This document shows positions 10,073-63,037 of a DNA stretch of 64,000 nucleotides, piece after piece. The stretch's first letter is position 1. Each line of letters opens with the position of its first letter. Below the pieces are notes generated by a model. It saw only the letters and a program-made list of their open reading frames with translations. It ran no database searches and was not told the origin of the DNA. The translations under genes were made by a program, and so were the position numbers. Origin of the DNA: Stenotrophomonas sp. BIO128-Bstrain (GTDB lineage: Bacteria; Pseudomonadota; Gammaproteobacteria; Xanthomonadales; Xanthomonadaceae); assembly GCF_030128875.1 (NCBI RefSeq), contig NZ_CP124620.1, forward strand, positions 992,001-1,056,000, given 5' to 3'.

Positions 10073-10269
10073 TCAGAATTGTAGAAGCCTTGTCTTTCGG
10101 TGCGTTTTGATGACCAACGTCAAGTTGCAACCGAAGCGGCCGATGCTGCGACGGAGGGAGCGCCATGCGCTGATCCGTACGTCGCCGAATTGACATCGCC
10201 GATGTAAACGGGACCCAACCCGAATCACCTTATTCCGTCCTGCAGCAAGGTATTTCTGTGCGGTAGGCC

Positions 10270-54547: not shown

Positions 54548-54567
54548 AGCAATCCCCGGGTCGCGGC

Positions 54568-55251
54568 TTACTGTGCCGCCTGCTGCGCTAGCAGCTCGGA
54601 CAGACCGAGCCACCCGATCTGCACGCCGATGCACAGAATCACGAATGCCAGCAGCCGCAGCACGACCTGGGTGCCGGTGCGACCCAGCAGTGACTGCAGC
54701 CGCCCGGCGTAGCGCATGCACAGGTAGATCAAGGCGCACAGTGCAAGCAATGCGCACGCGGCGGCTGCGATGTGCACGGCCTCCGGTCCCTGTGCCGGTG
54801 AGCTCGTGCCAACCGCGATGGCCACCGCGATGGATCCCGGTCCCACCGTAAGGGGCAGGGTGAAGGGATAGAACAGCAATGAGTCCAGCGAGGCCTCCGC
54901 ATCGTCGCGGGCCTCCTGCTGGGCGGCGCCGGCCAGCGAGCCATGCTCGCCCTGCGCGGGTGCCTGCAGCAGGCGCCACCCGGTCACCGCGATCACCAGC
55001 CCGCCCGCCAGCCGCAGCACGGGGATCGAGATGCCGAAGAACGACAGCACATAGGCCCCGATGCCGATCGAGGCGGCAAGCATCACCAGGCTGTTGAAGG
55101 CCACCGCGCGGGCCACCCGGCTCCGCTGGGCAGTGGTGGCTTCAGGCACGATGCCGAGCACCATCAGCGCCGCGCCCGGCGGATTGATCACCGGGAGCAG
55201 GCTGGTGAAGATCACCAGGAAGGTATGGCTGAAGTCGTTCCACATGGCCAT
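54568..55251 (-). CDS. MarC-family (UPF0056/NAAT) membrane protein
   Basis: A 227-residue protein with six predicted membrane helices. The N-terminus LVIFTSLLPVINPPGAALMV, FTLPLTVGPGSIAVAIAVG and the C-terminal LAFVILCIGVQIGWLGL are MarC-family features. No transport substrate is established. ATG 55251 is chosen; ATG 55245 is as plausible. It is divergent from the FNR-box operon, whose regulatory region lies just upstream of this gene. Confidence 0.88.
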   Translation of the reverse strand: MAMWNDFSHTFLVIFTSLLPVINPPGAALMVLGIVPEATTAQRSRVARAVAFNSLVMLAASIGIGAYVLSFFGISIPVLRLAGGLVIAVTGWRLLQAPAQGEHGSLAGAAQQEARDDAEASLDSLLFYPFTLPLTVGPGSIAVAIAVGTSSPAQGPEAVHIAAAACALLALCALIYLCMRYAGRLQSLLGRTGTQVVLRLLAFVILCIGVQIGWLGLSELLAQQAAQ

Positions 55252-55311
55252 GGGTGCTCGCAACACGCGGGGAGCCGCGCCCTACGATGCGACCACGGCG
55301 ATGAAGGCGGC

Positions 55312-55325
55312 TTGATCCTGGTCAA
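55312..55325. promoter_or_regulatory. FNR-type box 1 upstream of the multicopper oxidase operon
   Basis: TTGATCCTGGTCAA matches the FNR/Anr consensus TTGAT-N4-ATCAA at 9 of 10 defined bases. If transcription starts near 55415, it is centred at about -96.5. Confidence 0.75.
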
Positions 55326-55366
55326 GGGGCTGAATGCGCCCGTCGCGCACGGCAAGGCGTCCCGGC

Positions 55367-55380
55367 TTGATCTAGGTCAT
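55367..55380. promoter_or_regulatory. FNR-type box 2 at a class II activator position
   Basis: TTGATCTAGGTCAT matches the FNR consensus at 8 of 10 defined bases. A TACCGT hexamer at 55403-55408 is placed so that the box centre (55373.5) falls at -41.5 from a start near 55415, the standard position for FNR-activated promoters. The ATG of the first gene is 41 nt downstream of that start. Confidence 0.72.
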
Positions 55381-55455
55381 GCGTCGGGACGGCAGCACTC
55401 GCTACCGTGGGGTGGCCTGTGACCGGCGCAGGTCCGAACGCTCCGAGCGAGACCC

Positions 55456-55824
55456 ATGCACGAGCCAGCCTCTCCCCCACCTGCAGCGGACAAGCCGCCA
55501 ACACATGCGGCCTCCCTGGACGAGGACATCTGCGTCCACATCTTCACCACCTCGGCCGCGATGCTGGGCGTGTGCATGACCGTGGTCGGCGTGCTGCACG
55601 TGGTCACCGTATTGCGCCAGGTCGACACCCTCGGCGATGACCTGCTCAGCATCAACTCGCTGATCTACCTGGCCGCGTGCCTGAGCGCCTATTGGGCGCT
55701 GCGTACGCGGCGACGCAGGCGCAACCAGTTCCTGGAGGGGATGGCCGACTGGCTGTTCCTGGTCGGCCTGGTGGTCAGCGCCATTGCCACCGGTTTCATC
55801 ACCTGGGCCATCGCCGGCACCTGA
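55456..55824 (+). CDS. Three-helix membrane protein, first gene of the FNR-box operon
   Basis: A 122-residue protein. A Pro-rich cytoplasmic head of about 25 residues is followed by membrane segments near residues 28-50 (TTSAAMLGVCMTVVGVLHVV), 65-82 (INSLIYLAACLSAYWALR) and 95-119 (WLFLVGLVVSAIATGFITW), with the basic loop RTRRRRRN between the last two. I do not recognise the family. It lies 36 nt before the multicopper oxidase gene and directly behind the FNR boxes, so a part in the same process is likely. Confidence 0.75.
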   Translation: MHEPASPPPAADKPPTHAASLDEDICVHIFTTSAAMLGVCMTVVGVLHVVTVLRQVDTLGDDLLSINSLIYLAACLSAYWALRTRRRRRNQFLEGMADWLFLVGLVVSAIATGFITWAIAGT

Positions 55825-55860
55825 CGCGCCGGTCCCTTCTTCTCTCCAGCAGGTATCGCC

Positions 55861-57450
55861 ATGGCTCTGTTCCGCACCGCAGCGATTACCCCGTGCAGCC
55901 GGCAGTGGCGCCGGCTGCTGGATGCCTGTTTCGTTGCCCTGACCGGCGTGCTGCTGTGGGTGGGCGCGACGATGGCGCAGGCACCGCCGAACAGCGTGGA
56001 CCCGGGCGCAGCGCTGCAGGCCCCCATTGAGATCCGCTACGGCGCCGATGGCATCAGTGCGGGCACGCTGCGCGCGGCGATGTCGGCGGTATCCGTGGGT
56101 GGGCAGCCGTATCGCGCGCTGGTCTTCAACGGCAACTACGACGCCCCGCTGATCCGCACGCGACCCGGTGGCACGGTGGCGATCACGCTGGACAACCAGA
56201 TGGACGAGAAGACCAATCTCCACTTCCATGGGATGACGGTCACGCCGCTGGACTCGGGTGACAGCATCTTCCGCGAGGTCGGCCCGCACGAGAAAGGGCT
56301 GTACCGTTTCAAGCTGCCCCCCGATCACAGCCCGGGCGCCTACTGGTACCACAGCCATTTCCACGGCGGCGCGCAGCGCCAGGTGGAGTCGGGCATCGCC
56401 GGGCCGATCCTGGTCGACGGCATCCTCGATCCGTTCCCGGAACTGAAGGGCATCCAGGAGCGCGTTCTGGTCCTGCGCAATTTCCAGAAGACCCGTACCG
56501 GCAGGCTGGCCAGCGAGATCGTGACGAGCGCGCCATCGATCCGGACAGTCAACGGGCAGGGCGATCCGGTGATCGCCATCCAGCCCGGCGAAACCCAGCT
56601 GTGGCACCTGCTCAACATCTCCGCCAACCAGTACTTCCGCATCCGCATCAACGGGCAGAACGTGCAGATCCTGTCGCGCGACGGCAATACGGTGAACAAG
56701 CGGGTGATGACCGATGAACTGCTGATCGGGCCGTCCGCGCGTTTCAGCATTCTGGTGGTCGGCCCGTCCGCGGGCGATTACCCGGTCGAGCTGGCCGCCG
56801 GCAATACGGGTGCGGCAGGTGACCAGTACAAGGGCGCGCGCATCGCGACCCTGCGTGCCGGCGGAGCAGCTGTGGCCATCCGGGCGATCACCAGCGCATA
56901 TCCGGTATTGGAAGATCTGAGCAACGTGCGTGTGGCCAATGTCCGCCAGTTCGCCTTCCAGGATTCGGCGACTGACGGCGACGCCTTCCTGATCAATGGC
57001 GAGCGCTTCGATCCACGCCGGGTGAACACCACCGTCAAACTCGGCGATGTCGAGGAGTGGCGCCTGTACAACCCGTCCCAGGAGCTGCATCAGTTCCATA
57101 TCCACCAGACCGATTTCCAGGTGGTGGCGATCAACGACAAGCCCGTCCCGTTCAGTGGGTACCGCGATACGGTGTTCATCCCGACCCGCGGTTCGATCAC
57201 GTTGCGCATTCCGTTCCGTGATCCGGTGATGCTGGGCAAGTTCGTCTACCACTGCCACATCCTCGAGCACGAGGACGGCGGAATGATGCAGGTGATCCAG
57301 GTGGTACGCCCGGAGGACTACGCGCAGGCGGTCAAGCTGGCGCCGCTGGGTGGCATCTACGGCGACAACCAGACCTGCAGCTATCTCAGGAACACCGGGC
57401 GCGACTTCGCGCTGCCGCCCAACGTGCAGCTGCCTGCGGAGGTGCCGTGA
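55861..57450 (+). CDS. Three-domain multicopper oxidase
   Basis: A 529-residue periplasmic cuproprotein with a hydrophobic N-terminal signal ending near residue 40 (TMAQAPP). All copper ligands are visible: H121 and H123 (HFHG), H164 and H166 (YHSHFHGG), H410, H413 and H415 (HQFHIH), and the HCHILEH motif with H464, C465, H466, H470 and axial M475. This gives one type 1 and one trinuclear site, so it is laccase-like rather than a two-domain NirK nitrite reductase. The substrate is unknown. It is followed with a 1-nt overlap (TGATG) by an outer-membrane barrel gene, then a copper chaperone gene. FNR-type boxes head the operon, which is unusual for an oxygen-using enzyme. Confidence 0.93.
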   Translation: MALFRTAAITPCSRQWRRLLDACFVALTGVLLWVGATMAQAPPNSVDPGAALQAPIEIRYGADGISAGTLRAAMSAVSVGGQPYRALVFNGNYDAPLIRTRPGGTVAITLDNQMDEKTNLHFHGMTVTPLDSGDSIFREVGPHEKGLYRFKLPPDHSPGAYWYHSHFHGGAQRQVESGIAGPILVDGILDPFPELKGIQERVLVLRNFQKTRTGRLASEIVTSAPSIRTVNGQGDPVIAIQPGETQLWHLLNISANQYFRIRINGQNVQILSRDGNTVNKRVMTDELLIGPSARFSILVVGPSAGDYPVELAAGNTGAAGDQYKGARIATLRAGGAAVAIRAITSAYPVLEDLSNVRVANVRQFAFQDSATDGDAFLINGERFDPRRVNTTVKLGDVEEWRLYNPSQELHQFHIHQTDFQVVAINDKPVPFSGYRDTVFIPTRGSITLRIPFRDPVMLGKFVYHCHILEHEDGGMMQVIQVVRPEDYAQAVKLAPLGGIYGDNQTCSYLRNTGRDFALPPNVQLPAEVP

Positions 57451-58598
57451 TGCGCATCGTGTGCAGATCCCCTCTGTGTGCCGGGCTTGTTGCCGGGCTG
57501 GGCCTGCTGGCCAGCCCGGGCGCGCATGCCGACAAGGGCTATTACCCGAATCTGGGCATGGATTACAACGCGGTGATGCAGTACGACGTCAGTCGCACGG
57601 AAGGCAGTGGCGTGACCTCCCCGCGCAACACCACGGATTTCTATCCGGACATCCAGAGCAGCTTCTACATCCGCTTCAGCCCCAATGACCAGCTGCGGCT
57701 GTCCACCGAGTTCAACCCGGTCAATCCGCCAGCCGCCGGTGAAAAGCGCACTTTCGGCGATCTCGGGCTGGTGGTGAACGAACTCAACTACTACAAGCTG
57801 ACCCAGCACACCCAGCTGCAGATCGGCAAACTCCAGGTGCCGTTCGGGCGTGCGATGGACGCTGCGCCCGGCCTGTATACCAATGATTTCGTCGCCGCCT
57901 ACGACCTTGGCGGGATGCTGGGCGCCACGTACGCCTACCGCTGGTTCGGCCAGAAAGTCGGGATGATCGAAGGGGGGCTCAACCTGTACACCGCTGACAC
58001 CACCGAACTCAGCCGGCCTTTCCTGCGCAGCGGTGCGCGGGCGCAGCGCTCGGACGGCGGGCCGGCCAACACCGGCAAGCTCGATTCCTATGCGGTCACC
58101 GTGAACTGGGATGCGATGCCGGCGCTGCCGTTCCTGGAGATGCAGGCCGGCTACATGCGCAACCGCGCCGGCGTCGCGCAGCCCAACAGTGGGCCGGCCG
58201 ATGACGAAGTTATCCGCATTGTGTCCGCGCGCTACATCTGGGCGCCCGATTCCAGCGCGGACCTGGATACGACGCTGCGGTTCCGCTATTTCGATATCGT
58301 GCCGCTGGTCGAGTACGCGGATGTGCAGAATGAGAATGCGATCGCCGACAATGACACGCGCTATCTGACGACCTCGGTCACCGTCGACTACGGGCGCTGG
58401 GTCTTCGGGGCGACACGTACCGACAAGCGCCGCCCGTGGGCGGCCGGTGCGGGCCGGCATGACTATCTCAATGAAGTGAGCTGCGGCTATCGCGTGACTG
58501 GCCAACTCAGTATCGGGCTCTCCATCGGCAGCCAGGCAGTGGGTGGGCGGGAGGCCAACCTGGTCGGCATGGCGCTGTCCTACAACGGAGCGCACTGA
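57450..58598 (+). CDS. Outer-membrane beta-barrel protein (porin-like)
   Basis: A 382-residue protein with a signal peptide (residues 1-27, ending SPGAHADKG). The mature part is rich in alternating aromatic strands, such as SSFYIRFSPNDQLRLSTEF and LNYYKLTQHTQLQIGKLQVP, then DTTLRFRYFDIVPLVEY, and ends near LVGMALSYNGAH. This fits a 14- to 16-strand barrel of the phosphate-porin/OprP-like kind, although no exact family is assigned. The ATG at 57450 overlaps the oxidase stop by one base; GTG at 57447 is an alternative. SCO follows immediately. Confidence 0.82.
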   Translation: MRIVCRSPLCAGLVAGLGLLASPGAHADKGYYPNLGMDYNAVMQYDVSRTEGSGVTSPRNTTDFYPDIQSSFYIRFSPNDQLRLSTEFNPVNPPAAGEKRTFGDLGLVVNELNYYKLTQHTQLQIGKLQVPFGRAMDAAPGLYTNDFVAAYDLGGMLGATYAYRWFGQKVGMIEGGLNLYTADTTELSRPFLRSGARAQRSDGGPANTGKLDSYAVTVNWDAMPALPFLEMQAGYMRNRAGVAQPNSGPADDEVIRIVSARYIWAPDSSADLDTTLRFRYFDIVPLVEYADVQNENAIADNDTRYLTTSVTVDYGRWVFGATRTDKRRPWAAGAGRHDYLNEVSCGYRVTGQLSIGLSIGSQAVGGREANLVGMALSYNGAH

Positions 58599-58599
58599 G

Positions 58600-59199
58600 A
58601 TGGGGCGCACTCTGTGGACACTGGCGTGGGTGGGGATCGCGCTTCTGGCGCTACCGGCGTGGTCAGCCTCGCCAGACAACCCGATCGGCGGTGGTTTCAC
58701 GCTGGTCGACCAGCACGGGAAGGTAGTCACCGATCGCAGTTTCCATGGCAGACCGGTGCTGCTGTACTTCGGCTTCACGGCCTGTCCGGATGTCTGCCCG
58801 ACTGACCTCGCACGGCTGGTACGCATCGCCAGGCGGGTGCGCGCGCTCGGTGGGCCCGCGCTGAAAACGATCTTCGTCAGCGTCGATCCGGCACGCGACA
58901 CACCGTCGAAAATGAAGGCGTATGTATCGCTGTTCGGTCCCGATGTGATCGGGCTGACCGGTACCCCCGCGCAGATCGCGGCGGTCACCGATCGCTATCA
59001 CGTGTATTACCAGAAGGTGCCCTACGGCAAGCAGGGCCAGTACATGATGGATCACTCGACGTTCGTGTTCCTGCTTGATCGCGAGGGCCGCTATGTCGAC
59101 CATTTCGGGCGCACCGCCGACGAAGCCGCGGTGGCAGGCGATATCGTCGCCGGGCTGGGCGGGACGTCGCCTCGAGCGCACGCGGCCCGGCAGCGATGA
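58600..59199 (+). CDS. SCO1/SenC-family copper chaperone
   Basis: A 199-residue thioredoxin-fold protein with a signal peptide or anchor (residues 1-23). The copper-binding CxxxC is C62-C66 (FTACPDVCPTDLA), and the conserved histidine is H152 (MMDHSTFVFLLD). SCO proteins deliver copper to cuproenzymes, classically CuA of cytochrome oxidase; here the neighbour is a multicopper oxidase, its probable client. GGAG lies 10 nt before the ATG. Its stop TGA is directly adjacent to the stop of the convergent gene (TGATCA at the junction). Confidence 0.93.
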   Translation: MGRTLWTLAWVGIALLALPAWSASPDNPIGGGFTLVDQHGKVVTDRSFHGRPVLLYFGFTACPDVCPTDLARLVRIARRVRALGGPALKTIFVSVDPARDTPSKMKAYVSLFGPDVIGLTGTPAQIAAVTDRYHVYYQKVPYGKQGQYMMDHSTFVFLLDREGRYVDHFGRTADEAAVAGDIVAGLGGTSPRAHAARQR

Positions 59200-59484
59200 T
59201 CAGGGGCGGCCGTGGTCGTTGGCCGAATTCGCCGCCATCCGCAATTCCTGATCCGCCTGGATCAGCAGCTGGCGTGCACGCTCGGCATGGCCGCCGAGGC
59301 GCGAATTGTTGTCCTGCTGTGCCACACCGACCAGTTGATAGGCCTGCACGATGTGTTCCTGTGCGGTGCGGAGGTTGCCATGGCGCTCGCCGATGTTGAC
59401 GGTGGGCGCCTGCGCCAGGGCGAGCCCGGCGAGGGCGAGGGCGCCGACCAGAGCAAGGGGGGCGAGAAGGGAATGAGGCTTCAT
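59200..59484 (-). CDS. Small helical periplasmic protein with its own FNR-type box
   Basis: A 94-residue protein with a signal peptide (residues 1-25, LLAPLALVGALALAGLALAQ). The mature part is predicted mostly helical with several His and Gln residues (RHGNLRTAQEHIVQAYQLVG, GGHAERARQLLIQADQELR). I do not recognise it. The ATG at 59484 is chosen because it begins the signal peptide. It is convergent with the SCO gene with no gap. An FNR-type box lies 90 nt upstream, so it is probably co-regulated with the oxidase operon. Confidence 0.75.
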   Translation of the reverse strand: MKPHSLLAPLALVGALALAGLALAQAPTVNIGERHGNLRTAQEHIVQAYQLVGVAQQDNNSRLGGHAERARQLLIQADQELRMAANSANDHGRP

Positions 59485-59573
59485 GGGATCGACTCCGGAA
59501 AGGACAGGACGTCCGGACCGTACCCCGCTGCGTCCGGTAGGGGACACGCTACGACCGCCTGGGAACGGTCAGC

Positions 59574-59587
59574 TTGATGTGGGTCAA
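59574..59587. promoter_or_regulatory. FNR-type box upstream of the small periplasmic protein gene
   Basis: TTGATGTGGGTCAA matches the FNR consensus at 9 of 10 defined bases. On the minus strand TAGCGT (59551-59546) lies where a -10 should be if the box is centred at -41.5. Toward the plus strand no such -10 is found. The rest of the 59485-59864 gap shows nothing else I recognise. Confidence 0.72.
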
Positions 59588-59864
59588 GCGCGCAGCGCTT
59601 CGCCGGATTTCCTCGACGGCGGGACTGAACGCTTCAGCCTGCCGCGCGCCCTGAGAGGGCCCGACGGCATAAACCAGTAGAAATACTGATCGTTCGGATA
59701 TTGCACAACGCCGCGGCTCGAAACAGTATGAATCCGCCACCGGCAAGGGCGGCAGTATCAGTGCGGATGGGGTGTGTCAGTCACAGGGGGAAAGGCGGCA
59801 GGTGCAGTACCTGCCAGACGCGCCCGCGCACCGGGTGACGCAGCATCGCAGGAGGCCCACGATC

Positions 59865-60632
59865 ATGCGCATCCTCTCTGGCACGCCGTCGGCGCTGCGC
59901 TGCGCATGCTGTTCCTGCCCGCTGGGTCCGGGGTGCTTTCCGGGATCCGCCGATGCGGCCCATCTGCAGGAGTTGGAGAGGCTGGTCGAGCACACGATGC
60001 CCGTGCATGCCGGCCATCTGTTGTTCCGGCAAGGTGATCGGTTCCAGTACCTCACGGCGATCCGCTTGGGCACGGTCAAGACCTATGCAGTGGATCGCGA
60101 AGGCCGCGAGCAGACCCTCGGCTTCCACATGCCGGGTGATTTCCTCGGCCTCAGTGCCATCGATGAAGAGCGCTACCCCTGCAATGCGGTGGCGCTGGAT
60201 ACCGTGAGCCTGTGCCGGCTGCCGTTCCACGAGATCGCGGAACTGGCCACGAGAATGCCGATGCTGCAGGCCACGTTGTTCCGGTTGATGAGTCGCGACA
60301 TCGCCCGCGCCACCCAGTTGGCGTGCAACAGCATGGCCGACGAGCGGTTGGCCGCGTTCCTGATCGACATGGCCGACCGCATGGCGGCGCGGGGCTATGC
60401 TGCGAACCGGTGGCAGCTCACGATGTCGCGGATGGATATCGCCAGCTACCTGCGGCTCGCACCGGAAACCCTGAGCCGGTTGTTGCGCCGCTTCCAGGCG
60501 GAAGGGCTGGTGAATGTAGAGGGGCGCGATGTCGAAGTACGCGGCCGCGACCGCCTGCAGGTATTGGCGGCCGCCGACCCCATGCGGCGGAGCGCTGCAG
60601 CCGGCGTGCAGGTCCGCAACCAGGCGGCCTAG
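59865..60632 (+). CDS. fnr: FNR/Anr-type oxygen-sensing transcription regulator
   Basis: A 255-residue Crp/Fnr regulator. The [4Fe-4S] ligands match E. coli FNR: C15-x2-C18-x5-C24 at the N-terminus (CSCPLGPGC) and C117 in VSLCRLPF, the counterpart of C122. Two extra cysteines (C13, C16) lie in the same cluster. The recognition helix has E201, S204 and R205 (APETLSRLLRRF), the residues that read TTGAT half sites. ATG 59865 has AGGAGG 9 nt upstream and gives the usual length; a frame from 59772 would add 31 unrelated residues. It should respond to oxygen and act on the FNR boxes at 55312, 55367 and 59574. Confidence 0.92.
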   Translation: MRILSGTPSALRCACCSCPLGPGCFPGSADAAHLQELERLVEHTMPVHAGHLLFRQGDRFQYLTAIRLGTVKTYAVDREGREQTLGFHMPGDFLGLSAIDEERYPCNAVALDTVSLCRLPFHEIAELATRMPMLQATLFRLMSRDIARATQLACNSMADERLAAFLIDMADRMAARGYAANRWQLTMSRMDIASYLRLAPETLSRLLRRFQAEGLVNVEGRDVEVRGRDRLQVLAAADPMRRSAAAGVQVRNQAA

Positions 60633-60660
60633 CGCGGCATACCGCAGCGGGCCGCGGCGC

Positions 60661-62874: not shown

Positions 62875-62937
62875 ATGTGGGGGTGTTCGTCACCCTTGTG
62901 GGGCGTATGGGGGACGTGTTGCCGACGACCGGACTCG

Positions 62938-63027
62938 GTAGTGCCGGCCGCTGGCCGGCTCTTCAGGCTCCATGCAACCGCGCCGCATGGCGCCCTGATC
63001 GGGTTGCCGGCCAGCGGCCGGCACTAC
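62938..63027. repeat. SMAG inverted dimer between the receptor gene and hutU
   Basis: The first copy (62938-62960) begins GTAGTGCCGGCCGCTGG and the second (63005-63027) ends GGCACTAC, in opposite orientation, 44 nt apart. It is the same subtype as the dimer at 4702-4777. Confidence 0.87.
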
Positions 63028-63037
63028 CTTGAGCTGC

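Follow-up and report, generated by a model that had tools for sequence, protein, structure and literature searches.

The question raised by this locus is why a multicopper oxidase (MCO) should lie behind binding sites for FNR, an anaerobic activator. Copper oxidases depend on oxygen, and a drop in oxygen sharply alters the chemistry of copper and iron. The locus lies in a 64,000-nucleotide stretch of the chromosome of Stenotrophomonas sp. BIO128-Bstrain (NZ_CP124620.1, positions 992,001 to 1,056,000), called the window below. The original prediction, which covered window positions 55312–59199, described two FNR-type boxes followed by four tightly packed genes for a three-helix membrane protein, a complete three-domain MCO, a porin-like barrel, and an SCO copper chaperone. 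Our analysis retained this part and placed it in a larger feature, a 6.1-kb island (54548–60660) that also holds a third box, a gene for a small protein, a divergent MarC gene, and an FNR gene; the third box, the FNR gene, and the island nature had gone unnoticed in the first reading. The best overall explanation, to which we assign a probability of about 0.5, is that the island is a self-contained low-oxygen cassette that would make an SCO-loaded, exported MCO.

Promoter geometry and genes of the cassette

Box 2 (TTGATCTAGGTCAT, 55367–55380, plus strand) is centered at 55373.5, which is −41.5 from the predicted start at 55415. The −10-like hexamer TACCGT (55403–55408, plus strand) lies 22 nt after the box and occupies −12 to −7 of that start, just as the original prediction had placed it. 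Placement of the box at −41.5, ahead of a −10 hexamer, is an activating arrangement, referred to here as class II. Box 3 (TTGATGTGGGTCAA, 59574–59587, minus strand) is at −41.5 from the predicted start of the small gene, with TAGCGT (59546–59551, minus strand) exactly at the class II place. At 66% G+C, TANNNT is expected at a given place by chance in approximately 0.5% of cases. For the MCO operon, the class II arrangement was found, relative to predicted starts, in all six Stenotrophomonas genomes that carry an MCO orthologue.

Three results indicate that the boxes are not chance matches: an excess over a control pattern, clustering in the island, and a shuffle test. The box pattern TTGAYNNNNRTCAW matched the contig of 4,487,389 bases 30 times on the forward and 32 times on the reverse strand, compared with 6 and 6 for the control. 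These matches represent 44 distinct places, or 42 once two places at the contig end that duplicate other sites are removed; given that duplication, the true length of the chromosome is approximately 4.471 Mb. The island holds three of the 42 sites, where 0.057 would be expected (Poisson P 3e-5). In 20,000 mononucleotide shuffles of 55267–55455, at least one site appeared in 0.015%, and two sites appeared in none.

Box 1 (TTGATCCTGGTCAA, 55312–55325, no strand assigned) was rejected as a second site of the operon, because among the six MCO genomes it was found only in the window and in locus L034, the two in which MarC lies upstream; it was also found, with one mismatch, in genome G072. The MarC-family (NAAT) membrane protein gene (54568–55251, minus strand, with its ATG at 55249–55251; PF01914, E 1.6e-34) is inside the island and divergent from the operon. 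Because the box follows this gene in its distribution and fits a start in the minus direction, it is probably the MarC site. We hold this assignment weakly, since the hexamer at the −10 place on that side is CATCGT in the window (CATCGT/CATGGT overall) and not TANNNT.

The four packed genes of the operon were borne out by the open reading frames and a Pfam scan. The first, designated the TM gene (55456–55824, plus strand), encodes a small membrane protein of 122 residues for which the scan found no Pfam family; its membrane character stood, and the number of helices is uncertain, with hydropathy showing two strong regions (25–56 and 92–122) and not the three helices described. The MCO gene (55861–57450, plus strand) encodes 529 residues with an N-terminal hydrophobic segment. 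The enzyme is complete, having three Cu-oxidase domains (PF07732, PF00394, and PF07731, all above their cut-offs) and all 12 copper ligands expected from what we take to be the ligand motifs (H121, H123, H164, H166, H410, H413, H415, H464, C465, H466, H470, and M475). The ligands were invariant in 36 aligned sequences, and the T1 axial place is Met.

The third gene (57450–58598, plus strand) encodes an outer-membrane barrel-like protein of 382 residues, and here the original prediction fared less well: no Pfam family was above its cut-off, and the best match was a weak one to Porin_4 (E 0.24, with matches up to E 5 viewed). Outer-membrane barrels are expected to end in an aromatic residue; the C-terminus is NGAH in the window protein and YSGAY in the family consensus. 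A profile search found no solved relative of the barrel, and a sequence search gave two rows at chance level. The fourth gene (58600–59199, plus strand) encodes an SCO1/SenC copper chaperone (PF02630, E 4.3e-48) with CPDVC at 62–66 and MDHS at 150–153, which supports the chaperone assignment. The MDHS was aligned to Blr1131, and the CxxxC and distal His of the copper site are both present; NCBIfam, scanned at E 0.001, gave no SCO family.

Convergent with the SCO gene is the small gene (59200–59484, minus strand), whose product of 94 residues has an N-terminal hydrophobic segment. The cassette FNR gene (59865–60632, plus strand) lies 0.7 kb downstream of the operon and encodes 255 residues with PF00027, PF13545, and PF00325 above cut-off. 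Its cluster ligands C15, C18, C24, and C117 aligned with the cysteines of a solved FNR; we take the cluster cysteines of E. coli FNR to be C20, C23, C29, and C122. The recognition helix, PETLSR, contains E..SR. Against the NCBIfam Fnr subfamily NF008365 the protein scored 195.9 bits, below the cut-off of 228.

Distribution of the cassette and its boxes

In the conspecific genome G007 the island is missing as a block; 42 bases occupy the empty site, and the flanks are 91% and 95% identical. The MCO orthologue was present in 6 of 91 Stenotrophomonas genomes, the window's included (87–89% identity to the window), in 4 of 395 sampled genomes of the family (E 1e-60), and in 9 of 398 sampled genomes of the order (E 1e-120), which does not support a general occurrence at any of these levels. 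The cassette FNR (70–84% identity) was found in eight of the 91, namely the six MCO genomes plus G067 and G072. Seven had the small gene, including all six with the MCO, and seven had the TM gene, the seventh being a truncated copy in G067; this last count omits a 25% match in G013. Co-occurrence was thus 6 of 6 genomes with the MCO versus 2 of 85 (FNR), 1 of 85 (small gene), and 1 of 85 (TM gene) without it, giving Fisher P values of 4e-8, 1e-8, and 1e-8, which are optimistic because the genomes are related to each other. The part-cassettes in G067 (a draft, 77% complete) and G072 have kept the box, the truncated TM gene, and FNR in the former and MarC, the small gene, and FNR in the latter. 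No MCO orthologue was found in either genome, nor were a barrel and SCO in the stretches read.

The promoter-proximal box was present in all six MCO genomes, with TANNNT 22 nt downstream in each (TACCGT in five and TAAGGT in one), and it is kept while the neighboring sequence varies. Box 3 was found in the other five as well, with one mismatch in L037. The spacing of the small-gene promoter is exact in 4 of 7 genomes and one base off in 3 of 7, which are close relatives and include L037. Three relatives (L035, L036, and L037) have an extra gene in the cassette block, downstream of the cassette FNR, for a membrane protein of 178 residues (10284–10820 in L035; L035 and L036 coordinates are for the reverse complement). 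This gene has its own TTGATCCAGGTCAA box, and its TAGGCT is displaced by one base from the class II place.

With the spacing and the linked FNR gene both found in 6 of 6, the promoters of the cassette are very likely activated by an FNR-type regulator, and the co-regulation supposed by the original prediction gains support from the same features. That FNR acts as a repressor here, or that the boxes are inactive relics, is quite improbable, because the arrangement is of the activating kind and has been kept in every MCO genome amid variable surroundings. Such a reading could point to G067, which keeps a box though its MCO operon is gone, and to the repression of cioA by Anr in Pseudomonas (PMC6588701).

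Recent plasmid transfer of the island was considered and rejected, since the 11 plasmid records matched were all below 60% identity and the G+C content of the island (66.0%) is near that of the window (66.7%). Its history may be one of vertical descent with losses or of an older transfer. Beyond the island, at 62936–63029, the window has a short REP-like element of which G007, G067, and G072 contain many copies, in either orientation.

Gene neighborhoods were counted for 47 of 80 MCO loci. MCO, barrel, and SCO occurred together in 17 of the 47 (two Stenotrophomonas, 11 Pseudomonas, two Luteibacter, one Verrucomicrobia, and one Phycisphaerales contig), and SCO was near the MCO in 22. G325, taken as Lysobacter, also has all three genes, and the MCO is fused to SCO in nine of the best 120 of 1327 homologues. 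The barrel is on record for S. rhizophila as well. In Luteibacter-like genomes the small gene immediately precedes the MCO, and in Luteibacter L050 and L051 a MarC gene lies 1.2–1.4 kb before the small gene. In G667, a member of the same order, the small gene, MCO, barrel, and SCO are followed by an EF-hand-like protein, recognized by eye. Exported small proteins of this EF-hand-like appearance, again judged by eye, are encoded beside SCO in G667 (L231 5957–6235) and near a Stenotrophomonas cassette (L035 10919–11335; both on the reverse complement), and they are a possible further member of the module. On a Dadabacteria contig (L055 5651–8320), SCO, a PCu(A)C chaperone, and MCO lie in a row; the chaperone pair may also serve such MCOs.

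The FNR-type boxes did not extend to these relatives. An exact match to TTGAYNNNNRTCAW within 600 bp upstream was found in 2 of 74 MCO loci, both from Stenotrophomonas (six more loci were too short to judge), and the Pseudomonas and Luteibacter modules had no exact FNR box upstream. Conservation of the boxes upstream of orthologous operons, which the original prediction had looked to, therefore holds for the MCO-bearing Stenotrophomonas genomes, and FNR boxes were rejected as a general trait of the MCO family. A one-mismatch box in L158 (G325) was not counted, because it overlaps the coding sequence of a shortened TM gene. Eight Pseudomonas promoters (L040, L042, L044, L046–L049, and L062) share the motif AAAACTTGCGCGC ... 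TTCTACACTGC ... AAAAGTTGCGCGCA around a −10-like TACACT, and another regulator may bind there. From the restriction of the boxes to Stenotrophomonas and the different motif in Pseudomonas, it seems that the module either gained its FNR control within Stenotrophomonas or carried that control into the genus.

The acting regulator

Two FNR-type proteins of this genome, the cassette FNR and a core FnrL-type regulator, could act on the boxes. In a tree, a long branch with an ultrafast bootstrap of 84 and an SH-aLRT of 100 lies between 24 Fnr proteins of the family and genus and the eight cassette FNRs. Seven of the 29 inner branches are starred for their support; the long branch is not among them, and no single closed group joins all eight cassette FNRs. 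G006 and G072 have both a cassette FNR and a genus Fnr, and Fnr relatives at E ≤1e-72 were found in 178 of 395 sampled family genomes.

Genome-wide, TANNNT falls within one base of the class II place at 7 of the 42 sites, compared with about 1.2 expected. Two of the seven are in the island; the others are located between a ccoG-like gene and hemN-globin, before a bacteriohemerythrin gene, and near an oleate-hydratase-like gene, a gene for an outer-membrane-like protein (by eye), and one ambiguous place. Several neighbor genes of the genome-wide boxes, cut by the locus edge, are below their family cut-offs; hemN and bacteriohemerythrin pass. Boxes lacking TANNNT lie between a cydA-like gene and a gene judged by eye to be cydD-like, and before an adhP-like gene. 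Within the window, a further exact FNR-type match, TTGACGTTGGTCAT (10110–10123, minus strand), is located between two predicted gene starts, with TANNNT absent at the class II place.

The GTCA half-site was present in 3 of 3 island boxes and 0 of 7 other boxes chosen as class II or as lying beside likely targets (P 0.008). Because it also occurs in 3 of 9 other sites outside predicted genes (L125, L129, and L164, all without TANNNT), this split is suggestive only. Of the three exact copies of TTGAT-N4-GTCAA in the genome, the island holds two, and the third is internal to a predicted gene. A bolder reading is a private oxygen switch, in which the cassette FNR would have a specificity, TTGAY-N4-GTCAW, distinct from the TTGAT-N4-ATCAA of an FnrL regulon; within that reading the cassette would be a portable, self-regulating microaerobic metal-oxidation module with a dedicated SCO and a dedicated barrel. 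We consider both the switch and the module doubtful.

A further reading is that the MCO uses or handles nitrogen oxides, for example with N2O as acceptor or NO as substrate, and that NO is the signal to which the box responds. Clusters of the FNR type are reactive toward NO as well, and an MCO, nitrous oxide reductase activity, and Pyrobaculum are mentioned together in the literature; the activity itself we take to be that of McoP. The GTCAA half-sites also resemble TTGACnnnnGTCAA, given as the motif of HcpR proteins with Ser or Pro at CRP position 180 by Rodionov et al. (2005, PMC1274295), where the residue at position 180 is tied to the third base of the half-site. However, all four FNR cysteines are present in the cassette regulator, whereas HcpR, DNR, and NnrR are described there as lacking them, and no denitrification gene was found among the genes of the island, making this reading very unlikely. 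Position 180 is Pro in the cassette FNR, Met in FnrL, and Pro in the ordinary Fnr proteins of the family; since another base is concerned and the ordinary proteins share it, Pro does not single out the cassette.

Several observations weigh against a self-contained cassette under its own FNR. A core FnrL-type regulator, with the cluster motif C-x2-C-x7-C and a METVSR helix, is encoded in the window's genome and also in G007, and it could bind the cassette boxes too. The cluster cysteines are kept in seven of the eight cassette FNRs; in the eighth, from G026 (locus L034), Gly replaces the third N-terminal cluster cysteine and the boxes are intact. The persistence of FNR without the MCO in G067 and G072 suggests that it may have other duties. 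The six MCO genomes represent only about four independent lineages. Of all 20 cassette-type boxes, 10 have TANNNT at exactly the right place, 6 have it displaced by one base, and 4 lack it (three at MarC and one in G067). Finally, we found no copper regulator or metal gene family pointing to a substrate; among 19 neighboring open reading frames of related loci scanned for such a clue, only SCO, and once PCuAC, was informative.

The first of these points underlies the reading in which FnrL, and not the cassette FNR, drives the promoters, the cassette having joined the ordinary microaerobic regulon. The class II-type boxes found close to ccoG/hemN and hemerythrin would fit an FNR-type regulon at work in this genome, and GTCA is not unique to the island. 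Nevertheless, the FNR gene travels with the MCO, the half-site separates the island boxes from the selected others, and two of the three exact TTGAT-N4-GTCAA sites are in the island; we consider control by FnrL unlikely. The cassette's own FNR is probably the main regulator.

Proposed mechanism and comparison with known systems

From the boxes, ligands, and linkage we infer the following scheme. At low oxygen, FNR, most likely that of the cassette, would keep its [4Fe-4S] cluster and dimerize, bind the TTGAY-N4-GTCAW boxes centered at −41.5, and activate two transcription units, one for TM-MCO-barrel-SCO and one for the small exported protein. The SCO protein would load copper into the exported MCO. 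The MCO would then oxidize a metal in its reduced form, Cu(I) and/or Fe(II) being the likeliest, with the electrons passing to residual oxygen, and the barrel would let substrate or product cross the outer membrane. The oxidase is probably made mainly at low oxygen, because the cassette carries its own oxygen-sensing switch.

A main role as a metallo-oxidase is favored only tentatively, at slightly less than even odds. Cu(I) and Fe(II) are preferred because these ions persist when oxygen is scarce, because the operon contains a copper loader, and because of the example of a related enzyme type. That enzyme, the archaeal MCO McoP, is described as acting efficiently on cuprous and ferrous ions (PMC11111587). 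Phenols or a role in electron transfer may still apply, the closest solved relatives being laccases.

These relatives are the laccase-type MCOs of Thermus thermophilus (PDB 2xu9, 6w2k, and 9cpm), which matched residues 63–481 at E ~1e-58 and share the three-domain structure; the T. thermophilus laccase is not known to share an operon with SCO and barrel genes or to be under FNR-type control. CueO is alike in its three domains and in its Met axial ligand motif, which we take to be HCHxxEHxxxGMM. In contrast, the cassette MCO scored 135.1 against a cut-off of 525 for NF008205, most CueO matches aligned with it in two pieces, and, having 9 Met in 529 residues, it shows no evident Met-rich insert. 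CueO is under the control of CueR, whereas the cassette MCO lies behind FNR-type boxes. Scores were also below the curated cut-offs for copper_res_A (PcoA/CopA, TIGR01480; 112.5 versus 478.95), FtsP (NF008135; 71.4 versus 581), and copper nitrite reductase (TIGR02376; 38.1 versus 296.3), and on these cut-offs the MCO was rejected as CueO, CopA, FtsP, or copper nitrite reductase; some databases name its relatives 'suppressor of ftsI'.

The PcoA/CopA plus PcoB/CopB systems and the porin-MCO pairs of iron oxidizers resemble the cassette in that an MCO adjoins an outer-membrane barrel. The barrel had no CopB match (presumably PF05275) in Pfam up to E 5, so the cassette is not shown to be a PcoAB pair, and SCO is an added part relative to such pairs. 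The likeness raises the rather unlikely alternative that MCO and barrel form an electron path, either a high-affinity terminal oxidase or an outer-membrane conduit. The same type of box near respiratory genes of this genome and the barrel beside the MCO in close family members (the 17 loci above) are in keeping with it, but the Pfam scan found no cytochrome or quinone partner among the operon genes. He et al. (2017, PMC5566968) put forward a porin-MCO conduit and left undecided whether their pair serves efflux or energy gain.

The preferred reading, a low-oxygen cassette, has its closest regulatory counterpart in the microaerobic regulons of FNR and Anr, with which it shares the box type, the −41.5 geometry, and a [4Fe-4S]-type regulator, predicted here from the genes. 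Anaerobic-type control of an oxidase had been considered unexpected. That surprise is weakened by the boxes near ccoG-like/hemN-globin, bacteriohemerythrin, and cydA-like genes of the same genome, and by the presence of oxygen-using oxidases and cupredoxins in Anr regulons: the core regulon predicted in silico includes cioA (repressed) and azurin (azu), and ccoN in most species studied (PMC6588701). Among the matches listed by our literature searches, several of which covered only part of the hits, no MCO with SCO was reported to be under FNR control. The cassette differs from the known regulons in that it contains the gene for the regulator by which it seems to be controlled, and in the GTCA half-site of its boxes. 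With an MCO and the protein that probably loads its copper linked to an FNR sensor, it offers a testable case of Cu(I)/Fe(II) handling at low oxygen, and in it a wide, unnamed MCO-barrel-SCO module appears under a different switch in one genus.

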